64,000 nucleotides of DNA from Candidatus Hydrogenedentota bacterium. Lineage in GTDB: Bacteria; Hydrogenedentota; Hydrogenedentia; Hydrogenedentales; JAEUWI01. Under the pieces are notes generated by a model. It did not search any database, had not been told where the DNA came from, and saw only the letters and a program-made list of their open reading frames with translations. Positions 35,750-39,541 of this stretch are shown here, piece after piece (positions within the stretch are counted from its first letter, which is position 1; the number at the start of each line of letters is the position of its first letter). The position numbers were made by a program, and so were the translations under genes. Location: assembly GCA_019637335.1 (NCBI GenBank), contig JAHBVV010000009.1, positions 62,001 through 126,000 on the forward strand, read 5' to 3'.

Positions 35750-36118
35750 ATGGCCATCACGAGGCGTACAAACCGAGGTTTTACACTGCTGGAGGTCACC
35801 TTTGCCACGGGTATCCTCTTCCTGACACTGGTGTTGATCCTCGGGGCGATCGCGCATGTTGCGCATATGCGCGAACTGGGGGAGCGGCGGCATCTTGCCA
35901 CCGTCTGTCTCAACCACGTGATCGAGCGGGCGCGTGCGAACCCGGGATGGCAAGCGGACCTGGCTGCGCCGGCTTCCCTGCCGGGATCGTATCGCATCAC
36001 GGTGGAATCCGAGGCGCCGGGTGTCGCCCGCGTCATTGTGACGACCGAGACCTCCCGCGGGAGCACCGTTATCGTGTCCGCGGTATGTCCAGCAGGGGAG
36101 GGGTCCGATGCGCCGTAG
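35750..36118 (+). CDS. Type II secretion/type IV pilus pseudopilin (GspI-like)
   Basis: 122-residue pseudopilin. The N-terminus MAITRRTNRG ends in the prepilin-peptidase site; cleavage before FTLLEV leaves Phe+1 and Glu+5, followed by a hydrophobic helix. The short periplasmic domain is beta-rich. The ATG at 35750 follows GGGAG and gives the usual 10-residue leader; an ATG at 35732 would lengthen the leader to 16. It begins a tight five-gene cluster. Assignment to GspI rather than another minor pseudopilin is by size and order only. Confidence 0.82.
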   Translation: MAITRRTNRGFTLLEVTFATGILFLTLVLILGAIAHVAHMRELGERRHLATVCLNHVIERARANPGWQADLAAPASLPGSYRITVESEAPGVARVIVTTETSRGSTVIVSAVCPAGEGSDAP

Positions 36119-36683
36119 CGGGTTCACATTGATCGAGATGCTCGCCGCGATCTCCCTGTTGACCGCCGCGCTCGGGATGATCTGGGGCGCCTGGTTGCAG
36201 GCCAGTGCGACGGCGGATGTCCTGGAGCGAAAGACCGACGCGACGGATCGCGCCGTACACGCCATGGCCCGAATCTCCCGAGAATTGCGTGCGGCTTCCC
36301 GGGCCAGCCTGTCCGCCTTGCCCGCCGCCGAGATCGCCTACCGGATCCCGGAGGACCTTGACGCGAACGGATTGCCGATAGACGCGGACGGTATGCCGGA
36401 ATGGAGCGGGCCTCGCCGGATCGGGCGCGACTACAACGACGCCAATGGCGATGGTTTCACCGCGAGCCAGTTGATATTGGAACACCCCGGCGGAGTCGAC
36501 GTGATTGCAAACGGTCTTCCCGCAGCCGAGCCGCCTGGCGTCTCGCCGAGCGGCAACCCCGGCATCTGGTTCGAAGCGCGGGATGGCGGCATCCTCGTGC
36601 AATTGGAGGTGGTCTGCTTGACGCGCCGGGCGCGGGAGGTTCCCGCGCGCGTGGCGCAGTTTATTGCGCTGAGGAATCCGTGA
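36108..36683 (+). CDS. Pseudopilin, PulJ/GspJ-like
   Basis: 191-residue minor pseudopilin with a five-residue leader, MRRSG, then FTLIEMLAAISLLTAALGM (Glu+5 kept). The larger soluble domain follows and includes RAVHAMARISRELRAASRAS, a typical GspJ/PilW early helix. The start overlaps the previous gene by 11 bp and the stop overlaps the next start (TGATG), so translation is coupled throughout. GspJ normally works with GspI and GspK at the pseudopilus tip; here the order matches I-J-K. Confidence 0.82.
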   Translation: MRRSGFTLIEMLAAISLLTAALGMIWGAWLQASATADVLERKTDATDRAVHAMARISRELRAASRASLSALPAAEIAYRIPEDLDANGLPIDADGMPEWSGPRRIGRDYNDANGDGFTASQLILEHPGGVDVIANGLPAAEPPGVSPSGNPGIWFEARDGGILVQLEVVCLTRRAREVPARVAQFIALRNP

Positions 36684-37204
36684 TGCGCGATGCCGTGATG
36701 GAACGGACGCGCGGGGCCGCGCTGCTGCTGTGTCTCGTATTCATTGCGGCCTCTATTTCGCTCGTGGTGGTGCTAAGCACCCGATCCGCCGCACATCTCC
36801 GGCAGGCGGTGTACGCCAGTTCGGGCGTGTCCGCGTTTTCCGCGGCGGAGACCGGGCTGGCGCTTGCCGTAGCGGACCTGGATGCCGGGGGGACCGGCTG
36901 TCTTGGCGGCGCCGGGCCGCCCCGTTGGGACGCGCGTGGGCGGGCCATTCTTCCAGAGATCTCCGATGCCAGACTTTCACCCCACGCAATTTCCGGGAGT
37001 CCTCCGACCGCATGGTACACCGTGGCGGGCCCGAGGGCGGACCTACCGGATGGCTATGTCGTGGTCTACAGCGTGGCGCGATCAGGCGGAGTCGAGCGGA
37101 GGCTGGAGTGCGTTTTGCGCCGCGAGAAGTCTGGCCACGAAATCGTGGTGTGGCGCGAGCTGACGCCATCGGATGCCGGGGAGCGCGCCGATGCCGCTCT
37201 TTGA
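36683..37204 (+). CDS. GspK/PilX-like minor pilus component
   Basis: 173-residue protein with a single N-terminal helix (GAALLLCLVFIAASISLVVVL) after a short basic leader, MRDAVMERTR. Like GspK and PilX it lacks Glu at +5. The region after the helix (FSAAETGLALAVADLDAG) is the usual GspK/PilX helix and start of the alpha/beta domain. It is shorter than typical GspK (about 300 aa), so the globular insert is missing. The ATG at 36683 overlaps the previous stop; a GTG at 36680 is also possible. The stop overlaps the next start by 14 bp. Confidence 0.7.
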   Translation: MRDAVMERTRGAALLLCLVFIAASISLVVVLSTRSAAHLRQAVYASSGVSAFSAAETGLALAVADLDAGGTGCLGGAGPPRWDARGRAILPEISDARLSPHAISGSPPTAWYTVAGPRADLPDGYVVVYSVARSGGVERRLECVLRREKSGHEIVVWRELTPSDAGERADAAL

Positions 37205-38408
37205 GTACACAGGTGTCGACACGCGAGGCGCCACAGTGCAGGGCTCCGTCGAGGCCGAGTCGGCCTGGGCGCTCATCCCGGAATTGCGGGCCCGTGGGGT
37301 GATGGTCTACGCCGTGGCGCCAGAAGGGGGCGCGCGGGGCCTGGCGAATAGACCTCGGTCGATTGAGCTGGAAGATCTAAACCTGTTTGCGGAGCAGCTG
37401 TGTTCCTTGTCCCGCGCGGGCATGCCGCTGGCCACCGCACTGCGCGAACTCGCGCACGAGGTTCGGGGCAGGCGATTCCGCAACCTGATCGATACCGCCG
37501 CCCGTGAAGTCGCCGGGGGCCGTTCCCTGGGCGAGGTGTTCGAGCGCCATGGGGAGTCCTTTCCGCCACTGTACCTGGCGCTGATACGGGTTGGCGAGCA
37601 CACGGGCAATCTCCCGGGCGTCCTGCAGCGGATGATCGCCATCGGACATCGCCGCCAATGGCTTCGTCAGCGGCTGATGGTGGCGGTTGCATATCCCGCC
37701 TTTCTGCTCGGCGCGCTGGCGGTGTTCTTCGGCCTTTTCGTCACGGAGGTGATAGGCCAGTTTGAGCATATGTATCTGCAGTTTGGGGCCGAGTTGCCGG
37801 CTCTTACGGAAGCGGCTCTTTCCTTCGGGAAACTTATGCGCGGCGCCGGACTCCCCGCGATCGCGCTGTTTGCGGGCCTGACCGCACTTCTATACTGGAT
37901 TCGCGGGTATGTTCTTCCCGGTGACGCCGGCAGGCTTGCGGCGGAAGCGGCCCTGCTTCGCGCGCCCGTTGTGGGCCGTCTCTATCAGGCCATTCTTACG
38001 GCGCGGTTCGCCCGGGCGTTGGGCATGCTGCTGGAGAATGGCGCACCCATTCTGGAGAGCCTTCAGCTTGCTGGCATCGCCACGGCCAGCACGCGCTTCG
38101 CCCGGGGCATGGCCCGCGCGGCCACGCGCGTTGCGCAAGGGGATCCCGTGGCGCAGACCGTTGCGGCGACCGGTCTATTGCGCCCCATCGATGCCTGGAT
38201 ACTGAAGCACGGCGAATCGGCCGGCGATCTTCCCGGAGCGCTCGCGCGGCTGGCGGAGTCCTGTGATCGCGAGTCGGAGCGGGGGCAACAGTCCGCGCTT
38301 GGCGGGCTCGGGGCGGGTCTGGTGATCGTCTGCGGAATTCTAGTGGGATTGGCGGTGATCGCGTGTTTTCTGCCGGTCTTTCAATTTCCCCTGATGCTGC
38401 GAGGTTAG
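37191..38408 (+). CDS. Type II secretion/pilus inner-membrane platform protein (GspF/PilC)
   Basis: 405-residue platform protein. The N-terminus MPLFEYTGVDTRGATVQGSVEAES is the diagnostic GspF start (FxY...G...G.ieA). Two T2SF domains follow (about 60-190 and 260-395), each ending in transmembrane segments, with FAEQLCSLSRAGMPLATALREL and FARALGMLLENGAPILESLQLA as the paired helices. Length fits the family. The ATG at 37191 has GGGAG upstream. GspF couples the cytoplasmic ATPase to pilin assembly; no ATPase gene is in the cluster. Confidence 0.92.
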   Translation: MPLFEYTGVDTRGATVQGSVEAESAWALIPELRARGVMVYAVAPEGGARGLANRPRSIELEDLNLFAEQLCSLSRAGMPLATALRELAHEVRGRRFRNLIDTAAREVAGGRSLGEVFERHGESFPPLYLALIRVGEHTGNLPGVLQRMIAIGHRRQWLRQRLMVAVAYPAFLLGALAVFFGLFVTEVIGQFEHMYLQFGAELPALTEAALSFGKLMRGAGLPAIALFAGLTALLYWIRGYVLPGDAGRLAAEAALLRAPVVGRLYQAILTARFARALGMLLENGAPILESLQLAGIATASTRFARGMARAATRVAQGDPVAQTVAATGLLRPIDAWILKHGESAGDLPGALARLAESCDRESERGQQSALGGLGAGLVIVCGILVGLAVIACFLPVFQFPLMLRG

Positions 38409-38413
38409 GACAC

Positions 38414-39541
38414 ATGGAATTCGGCGCACCAGATGAGACTTGGGATAACGGCGGGCGCCCGCTTCCGGATGGCCGCGCGCCCCGCTACCGCACCTGGCTG
38501 CTCCATTGGCGCGATCTTCTCATCGCGGTCCGCGCCATTCAGGTTCTCGTGGCGGCGCGCCTGCCGCTTGCCGCGGGCCTTCTGTACCTGAGCCACGATA
38601 CGCCGAGCCGCCCGCTACGGTATGTGTTCTACGCGATGCATCGCGACATTCAAGGTGGCCTGGCGCTTCACGAGGCCATGGCGAACCGCCCCGAGTTCTT
38701 TCCGCCTTTCTGCACCAAGCTTGCCCGGGCCGGGGAAGAAAGCGGGCAGTTGGACGCGGCCCTGGACGAACTCCAGTCCGGCGTTTCGGATGCCGTTTCA
38801 ATCCGCTACGTCACGTTCTGGCACGCCTGGATGCTGGGGGGTGTACTGCTATTCCCGATACTGCTTGCGGCTGTCATTCTCGTATTCGTCGCGCCACAAT
38901 TGGAGTCCATCCTGACACATTTTGGAAAGCCGCCGGGGCGTCTGCTCTATTGGGGGCAGTTCGCCAGGGATAGCGGGCTTCTCGCGGGGCTCGCGCTCTT
39001 CGCCGTTGGGGTGTTGCCGGGTTGGATTGCGGTCGAATACTCCTGGCTGAAGGGCGGGCCCCTCTCGCGGATCGCGTCGGCGGTTTTCGAGCGGCTACCG
39101 CTTGTTGGCCGCCATTTCCGTAAGCGCCATCTGGCCACCGCCGCCGCGGTGGCGGGCCATCTGTTGCGCGCGGGCGCGCCGCTGCCGCTGGCGCTACGGG
39201 AGGCCGGAGAAGCGGCGGGGTCGCGGCGCTGCAACACAATCTTCGAGCGTCTGGCGGCGGCGGTGGAGGGGGGAGATGGAATCCGGGACGCGGTGCGCCG
39301 CGATCACGGCAATTTACCAGGTTCTTTCCGCGCGCTGGTGTCGCTCGGCGAACAGGGGGGAGGGTTGCCGGACGCGTTCCAGCAGATCGCGGCACTTTAC
39401 CGCAGACAGACGGATCAATCCGCGCGCCTGGCTATTGAACTTGGTCTGCCGTTGCTCGTCTGTTTGAATGGCCTCATCGTCTTCTGGGTCTACGGGGCCA
39501 TATTCAGCACGCTGAACGCGATCACCCTCTTGGGATTCTAG
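38414..39541 (+). CDS. Second, divergent GspF/PilC-like protein
   Basis: 375-residue paralogue of the preceding protein. It lacks the N-terminal FEYTG segment and instead has about 40 polar residues before the first T2SF domain (IAVRAIQVLVAARLPLAAGLLYL). The second domain starts near KRHLATAAAVAGHLLRAGAPLPLALREAGEA, and both keep the membrane helices. LARAGEESGQLDAAL and VSLGEQGGGLPDAF are the domain-end signatures. It starts 6 bp after gspF1 with TTAGGA upstream and ends the cluster. Two unlike GspF proteins side by side suggest a hetero-oligomeric platform. Confidence 0.88.
   Translation: MEFGAPDETWDNGGRPLPDGRAPRYRTWLLHWRDLLIAVRAIQVLVAARLPLAAGLLYLSHDTPSRPLRYVFYAMHRDIQGGLALHEAMANRPEFFPPFCTKLARAGEESGQLDAALDELQSGVSDAVSIRYVTFWHAWMLGGVLLFPILLAAVILVFVAPQLESILTHFGKPPGRLLYWGQFARDSGLLAGLALFAVGVLPGWIAVEYSWLKGGPLSRIASAVFERLPLVGRHFRKRHLATAAAVAGHLLRAGAPLPLALREAGEAAGSRRCNTIFERLAAAVEGGDGIRDAVRRDHGNLPGSFRALVSLGEQGGGLPDAFQQIAALYRRQTDQSARLAIELGLPLLVCLNGLIVFWVYGAIFSTLNAITLLGF

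Follow-up and report, generated by a model that had tools for sequence, protein, structure and literature searches.

The platform protein PulF has been reported to form a homotrimer that matches a hexameric ATPase, and to have a channel whose lining residues, Tyr168 and Glu370, sit next to invariant prolines; in the current model, the conserved Tyr-Pro and Glu-Pro line a proton or sodium channel (PMC10790770). Systems with two platform proteins have also been described. The Tad proteins TadB and TadC, which derive from the fission of one gene, carry one T2SSF domain each (PMC6668835, PMC10191384), and the archaeal Epd system has two platforms, EpdJ and EpdK, both of which are required for piliation (PMC4371748). 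Com is a known core-only machine (PMC10191384). Among open-licence PMC papers, none that we found describes full-length GspF/PilC proteins in tandem.

We analyzed a window of 64,000 nucleotides, the whole stretch of DNA under study (G000:C9:62001-126000), from a Candidatus Hydrogenedentota genome (referred to as G000), and compared it with 60 genomes of the order, all of them MAGs. The window carries a five-gene cassette that is part of the type IV filament superfamily, in a form with two full-length platform proteins (referred to as F1 and F2). A first-pass annotation of the window had stated that known systems have one platform protein, which does not hold for Tad and archaeal Epd (PMC6668835, PMC4371748). 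The cassette resembles these two systems in combining two adjacent, different platform genes with one ATPase. However, the Tad and Epd platforms are half-size, with one T2SSF domain against two in each of F1 and F2, and the ATPase assigned to the cassette is of the GspE/PilB type rather than the TadA type.

Gene content and conservation of the cassette

The five genes, all on the plus strand, overlap or abut one another and encode I-, J- and K-like pilins followed by the GspF pair (Table 1), as the first-pass annotation had correctly observed in describing three pilin-like and two unlike GspF genes that overlap or nearly touch. The overlaps are 11 bases at I/J, 1 base at J/K (TGATG) and 14 bases at K/F1, a gap of 5 bases separates F1 from F2, and an SD-like stretch lies upstream of each gene start. 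Scans for consensus promoters and terminators inside the cassette gave nothing above chance. Judging from the overlaps, the five genes are probably transcribed as a single transcript.

Table 1. Cassette genes (window 35750-39541) and related features elsewhere in G000; positions without a contig prefix refer to the window.
Feature	Length (aa)	Position	Strand	Characteristics
I-like type IV pilin	122	35750-36118	+	Leader; N_methyl below cut-off; in relatives also conserved as the first gene
J-like type IV pilin	191	36108-36683	+	Leader; N_methyl above cut-off; conserved in relatives
K-like minor pilin	173	36683-37204	+	Leader; predicted pilin fold; conserved in relatives
F1 platform	405	37191-38408	+	GspF N-domain and two T2SSF domains
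F2 platform	375	38414-39541	+	Two T2SSF domains, without N-domain
Short GspE	421	G000:C48:12130-13392		Lone gene; in clade of GspEs beside F1-F2
C2 sister locus (L046)		G000:C2:248908-254235		Without ATPase gene
Lone platform "F0"	~340	G000:C4:339175-340194 (L051:6176-7195)	-	Two T2SSF domains, without N-domain

All three pilin-like proteins carry prepilin leaders, and those that had been noticed before FTLLEV in I (MAITRRTNRG^FTLLEV) and FTLIEM in J (MRRSG^FTLIEM) were confirmed. The Pfam N_methyl model matched J above its cut-off (7.9e-6) and I below it (16.0 against 21.2). I also matched ComGE (21.5/49 bits), ComGF (17.2/80 bits), XpsI and GspI, all weakly and below cut-off. The K leader (MRDAVMERTRG^AALLLC) lacks Glu5, as does that of GspK. 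No Pfam family matched K; its AlphaFold model is a plain pilin fold (pLDDT 89.6) in which the GspK alpha insert is absent, with GspK (3ci0_K) and XcpX among weak matches in the PDB, which bears out the earlier remark that this protein is short for GspK. The three leaders, the J match and the K fold identify these proteins as type IV prepilins. J shares 38-51% identity with its relatives and has two acidic D-x-D/N loops (residues 82-92 and 108-116; LDANGLPID and DYNDANGDG) similar to EF-hand-type Ca sites. D108, D111, N113, D115 and G116 are invariant in nine aligned sequences, and the loops look Ca-binding.

Upstream of the cassette lie genes for a DUF2339 protein and a CCA-adding enzyme, and downstream a TolC/HlyD/RND efflux operon, none of which is part of a pilus system. 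There was no GspE, secretin or prepilin peptidase gene near the cassette and no adjoining PilT-type gene. When the gene calls were inspected, GspL/M-like genes were absent both from the cassette and from the surroundings of the short GspE gene on C48. Profile searches found no T2SSE match anywhere on contig C9, and the only secretin on this contig lies ~70 kb away, within a pilMNOPQ-like gene run. The earlier claim that the cluster contains neither ATPase nor secretin therefore stands, and no co-localized GspE or GspD came to light. The PilMNOPQ and PilT genes of type IVa pili were likewise absent from among the neighbouring genes. The cassette is similar to T2SS in its I-J-K pilin order, GspF-type F1 and GspE-type ATPase, but the locus lacks GspC, D, L and M, has a second platform and a K without the GspK insert, and its ATPase lacks N1E. 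It has no dedicated GspD (none within ~70 kb) and no GspE with both N1E and a GspL partner, and T2SS equivalog models remained below their cut-offs (gspI, 15.4/44.35; gspJ, 15.1/64.85; gspF, TIGR02120 against F1, 249.5/424 bits).

Four f1 genomes share the conserved I-J-K-F1-F2 order, which recurs within the genus in G001, G002 and G003 and outside it in G014 of family f9, and similar cassettes occur in families f11 (G047 and G055) and f5 (G024 and G042). Elsewhere in the order, a short GspE gene and three or four pilin genes come after F1-F2. Because the five-gene order recurs in G001, G002, G003, G014 and G047/G055, the arrangement goes beyond chance. This recurrence, in the genus and three other families, agrees with the earlier suggestion of a small system of its own, since the cassette is a self-contained unit conserved in relatives. 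One further Hydrogenedentota contig (L154) carries a short GspE gene with three tandem platform genes, and a contig labelled Nitrospiraceae (L153; JAACEL010000283.1) carries a Hydrogenedentota-type F1-F2-GspE and is probably mis-binned or the result of a recent transfer.

Two paralogous full-length platform proteins

Both platform proteins contain two stretches matching PF00482 (T2SSF; 4.4e-39 for F1 and 4.7e-34 for F2), and the GspF N-domain is present in F1 only, as the first-pass annotation had read from the sequence for both the T2SF domains and the diagnostic N-terminus. The F2 model is a complete GspF fold (pLDDT 90.1, pTM 0.81), with PilC (3jc8) and the cytoplasmic domains of EpsF/OutF as its closest solved relatives. 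In a quick tree of 30 F1, 30 F2 and sixteen single platform proteins, for which support was calculated as SH-aLRT only, all F1 formed one clade (99) and all F2 another (100), both apart from the single platforms, and the nine window-type F1s grouped together at 99. The canonical T2SS/T4P GspE and GspF of these genomes fall outside the cassette clades. Throughout the order, F1 and F2 are kept paired in the same order, and either one occurs alone only on cut-off or fragmented contigs. These separate, well-supported clades indicate that F2 is a paralogue that arose long ago and has been retained, not a duplicate in decay; it is intact and conserved in the relatives.

We then compared 30 F1 and 30 F2 with 29 single platforms from Hydrogenedentota and other phyla at PulF-aligned positions. 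All 29 single platforms have the Tyr-Pro, and 26 have the channel Glu/Gln, against none of the 60 F1 and F2 proteins (0/30 in each). The TMS1 Tyr-Pro is retained in all F1 (30/30), whereas F2 keeps the Tyr (29/30) without its proline (0/30), and the Pro at the end of TMS3 is found in 29/30 F1 and in no F2. An acidic residue one turn earlier (position 391) is present in 22/30 F2. The two platform paralogues noted earlier are non-redundant, and each also has conserved residues of its own: Trp356 is invariant in F1, and P351 occurs in 30/30 F2 against 2/30 F1. In the window, F1 lacks the TMS3 Glu-Pro and has Gly-Ala where x-Pro is expected, and F2, with Met in place of the Tyr, is also without the Pro of TMS1, the channel Glu and the TMS3-end Pro. 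When domain HMMs were used to ask whether F1 and F2 have decayed in a complementary way at Cyt1 and Cyt2, the outcome was not clean, as F1 favoured Cyt1 (p = 0.0004) and F2 had no preference (p = 0.46), and we therefore make no claim at the domain level.

Because the channel Glu is lost in both proteins and different conserved residues are lost in each, we read F1 and F2 as unable each to form a standard PulF-like homotrimer, and a mixed ring, in keeping with the hetero-oligomer that the first-pass annotation had suggested, would be the simplest arrangement. Alternatively, F1 and F2 may be separate homo-oligomeric platforms between which the same ATPase switches, for extension versus removal or for different pilin sets. 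A similar proposal exists for TadB/TadC (quoted in PMC4371748), a homotrimeric PulF-like platform would match the hexameric ATPase (PMC10790770), and the lack of an adjacent PilT-type gene would suit such a switch. However, the invariable pairing of F1 with F2 and the residue losses, shared at the channel Glu and different elsewhere, make this alternative unlikely.

A candidate motor on another contig

Of the 12 platform proteins encoded by G000 (7.16 Mb, 55 contigs, 96% complete), two are those of the window, four come from consecutive genes on contig C2 and six are single. This gives three F1/F2 pairs, one on C9 and two on C2. A search of the rest of the genome, which had been proposed as a check, found eight full-length GspE-class ATPases in addition to PilT-like ones, none of them on C9, as well as eight secretin matches, of which one is that on C9, and one prepilin peptidase, on C36. 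Platform, ATPase and prepilin peptidase are thus all available, the latter two in trans, as expected of the type IV filament superfamily, and it is almost certain that the motor of the cassette is encoded at another site in the genome.

The GspEs encoded beside F1-F2 in relatives are ~420-440 aa long and lack N1E. The GspE on C48 matches TIGR02533 from position 83, likewise lacks N1E, and has its Walker A, Walker B and two CxxC motifs intact; the TadA-family model scored 37.7/373 bits, below its cut-off, and the ATPase is of the GspE/PilB type. It groups with the F1-F2-adjacent GspEs (100/100, branch 1.4), and no other G000 GspE does so. Across the 60 genomes, members of this clade scored at least 431 bits, except for one contig-end fragment (357), against at most 345.5 bits for other GspEs.

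The co-occurrence of F2 and short GspE was examined in the same 60 genomes, with F2 called by an F2 profile and two fragmented or weaker cases assigned by adjacency. Both were found in 31 genomes, short GspE only in nine, F2 only in one and neither in 19 (Fisher p = 5e-8, for MAGs that are not phylogenetically independent). Short GspE is thus present in 31/32 F2 genomes, and the exception, G006, is 60% complete. One of the nine GspE-only genomes (G009) has a diverged tandem platform pair beside its GspE gene; the other eight have no recognizable F2 or pair, and short GspE may therefore have another job or partner. A lone platform gene on C4 ("F0" in Table 1) adjoins a gene for a membrane-anchored PPIC-type prolyl isomerase, with no ATPase or pilin gene adjacent (loci L246-L254), and was matched strongly in most of the 60 genomes. 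As a partner of short GspE it was rejected as not specific, being found in nearly all genomes, including those without short GspE.

Several genomes have more platform pairs than short GspEs. In G000, G001 and G003, a single short GspE gene stands against three F2 genes, and G047 and G055 have two F1/F2 pairs and one short GspE gene, which adjoins one pair and leaves the IJK-F1-F2 cassette without an ATPase gene. The motor would therefore be shared in G047 and G055, if this clade powers both pairs. Lone-type GspEs share 66-87% identity with the C48 GspE, against 38-48% for F1/F2 within the genus, which is consistent with a motor constrained by several partners. Based on its 100/100 grouping and on its being the only gene of this kind in a genome with three F1/F2 pairs, the C48 GspE is the best candidate for the motor of the cassette and probably common to all three pairs, which makes the earlier proposal of a shared distant motor well supported, though not proven; physical pairing with F1-F2 is presumed from sequence.

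Another G000 ATPase might drive the cassette instead, either one of the long orphans on C20 and C21 or a T2SS/T4P ATPase, as encoded on C31 and C3. In favour of this, several of the eight GspE-class genes have no adjacent platform gene, and in eight genomes short GspE occurs without F2. However, only the C48 GspE falls into the F1-F2-adjacent clade, those on C20 and C21 are long branches elsewhere in the GspE tree, and short GspE is nearly constant in F2 genomes, so that a different motor seems improbable.

Wider distribution and a proposed machine

Outside Hydrogenedentota, six Planctomycetota loci have a short GspE gene together with tandem platform genes. When 99 genomes were searched strictly, 14 had a close match (the query included), and most of 13 further Planctomycetota loci, one of which is the L195 locus, have the same combination. 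These operons share with the cassette system the short GspE, tandem two-domain platforms, pilin-like genes and absence of a secretin, but the GspE gene comes first and the second platform is highly diverged. Two of them, on very long contigs (L273, G111:C1; L280, G132:C1), have short GspE and three platforms in a row. Tandem platforms were also found in TA06 and Nitrospirota records. Doubled full-length-platform machines thus recur in two phyla and, as far as we found, are undescribed. The Planctopirus limnophila locus Plim_0410-0401, in which genes for four "Type II secretion" proteins precede six that are specific to planctomycetes (PMC10632474), may be an operon of this type.

The channel Glu is missing in all members of the Planctomycetota pairs examined. 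The TA06 pair retains it, as do, in the form of Glu-Pro, two of three copies in the Planctomycetota triple loci, and therefore its loss does not extend to every tandem; single platforms beside related GspEs also keep it (L175, L177 and L181). In a wider GspE tree, the tandem-type GspEs of Hydrogenedentota (SH-aLRT 98) and Planctomycetota (SH-aLRT 100) lie on one side with modest joint support (82), at which one origin of the doubling is indistinguishable from several.

Closely related lone GspE-like ATPases without a platform gene nearby were seen in L174 and L176 (labelled Poribacteria and Abyssobacteria), in conserved surroundings of small lipoprotein-like, MazG-like and aldolase-like genes, as judged by eye. 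The short GspE genes of Verrucomicrobia (L194 and L199) were rejected as tandem-platform loci, since a glycosyltransferase gene and not a platform gene adjoins them, and minus-strand "secretin" scores at compared loci were artefacts of a wrong-frame reference.

We consider it likely that the cassette belongs to a secretin-less, Com-like machine with a hetero-oligomeric F1/F2 platform, an IJK tip and the C48 GspE acting in trans. The cassette would be the tip-plus-platform module of such a minimal type IV filament machine, in which full-length F1 and F2 would together make one platform. The short, N1E-less GspE would drive the three F1/F2 pairs, presumably through direct contact, and the single peptidase on C36 would process the pilins. 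I, J and K may start a short pseudopilus anchored in the inner membrane, as GspIJK do, with a main subunit supplied by another locus. A plausible candidate is the DUF1559-type G-like pilin of the C2 sister locus. A first guess at the role would be a periplasmic piston or tether.

The C2 sister locus consists of F1-F2-F1-F2, three minor-pilin-like genes and a G-like pilin gene with DUF1559 similarity. The DUF1559 family (PF07596) has been described as apparently restricted to Planctomycetes (PMC10632474). Pilin-like genes of this family were found in 60/60 Hydrogenedentota genomes, with many copies in most (up to at least 34), and their presence was accordingly uninformative as a tracker of the two-platform system.

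The likeness to Com raises the question of DNA uptake. Like the monoderm ComGA-ComGB-ComGC..GG system, the proposed machine has pilins, a platform, an N1E-less ATPase and a peptidase, and its locus lacks a secretin, MNOP and GspLM. In contrast, Com has a single ComGB, whereas the cassette has two platforms in a diderm, an unlinked motor in G000 and pilins that are not ComG equivalogs. A Com-like DNA-uptake filament with a doubled platform would accord with this minimal composition and with weak ComGE/ComGF matches of I and J, but these matches score far below their cut-offs and stem from the leader helix that such proteins have in common, and we regard this function as rather improbable. That the cassette is a scattered remnant of an ordinary T2SS or type IVa pilus with F2 as a decaying duplicate, as its I-J-K order, GspF similarity and the distant pilMNOPQ-like run with a secretin might suggest, is very improbable given an intact F2 with its conserved P351, frequent acidic residue 391 and fully supported clade, and given that the canonical GspE and GspF of these genomes belong to other parts of the trees.

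More tentatively, and with considerable doubt, Hydrogenedentota and Planctomycetota may have a separate class of type IV filament machine. In this class, the homotrimer would have given way to an obligate hetero-oligomer of two full-length platforms, the channel Glu would have been dispensed with, and one shared motor would drive several interchangeable tip-plus-platform modules, with filaments built from DUF1559-type pilins drawn from a large pool.

The system bears on how a platform protein turns ATPase rotation into pilin extraction. With two full-length, asymmetric platforms, neither of which has the channel Glu, both the stoichiometry and the channel proposed for PulF become directly testable. 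Because motor and platform genes are unlinked, detection based on loci that hold pilins, GspE, GspF and secretin together misses such systems. The cassette adds a secretin-less minimal machine in diderms, one that recurs in two phyla with poorly understood envelopes.
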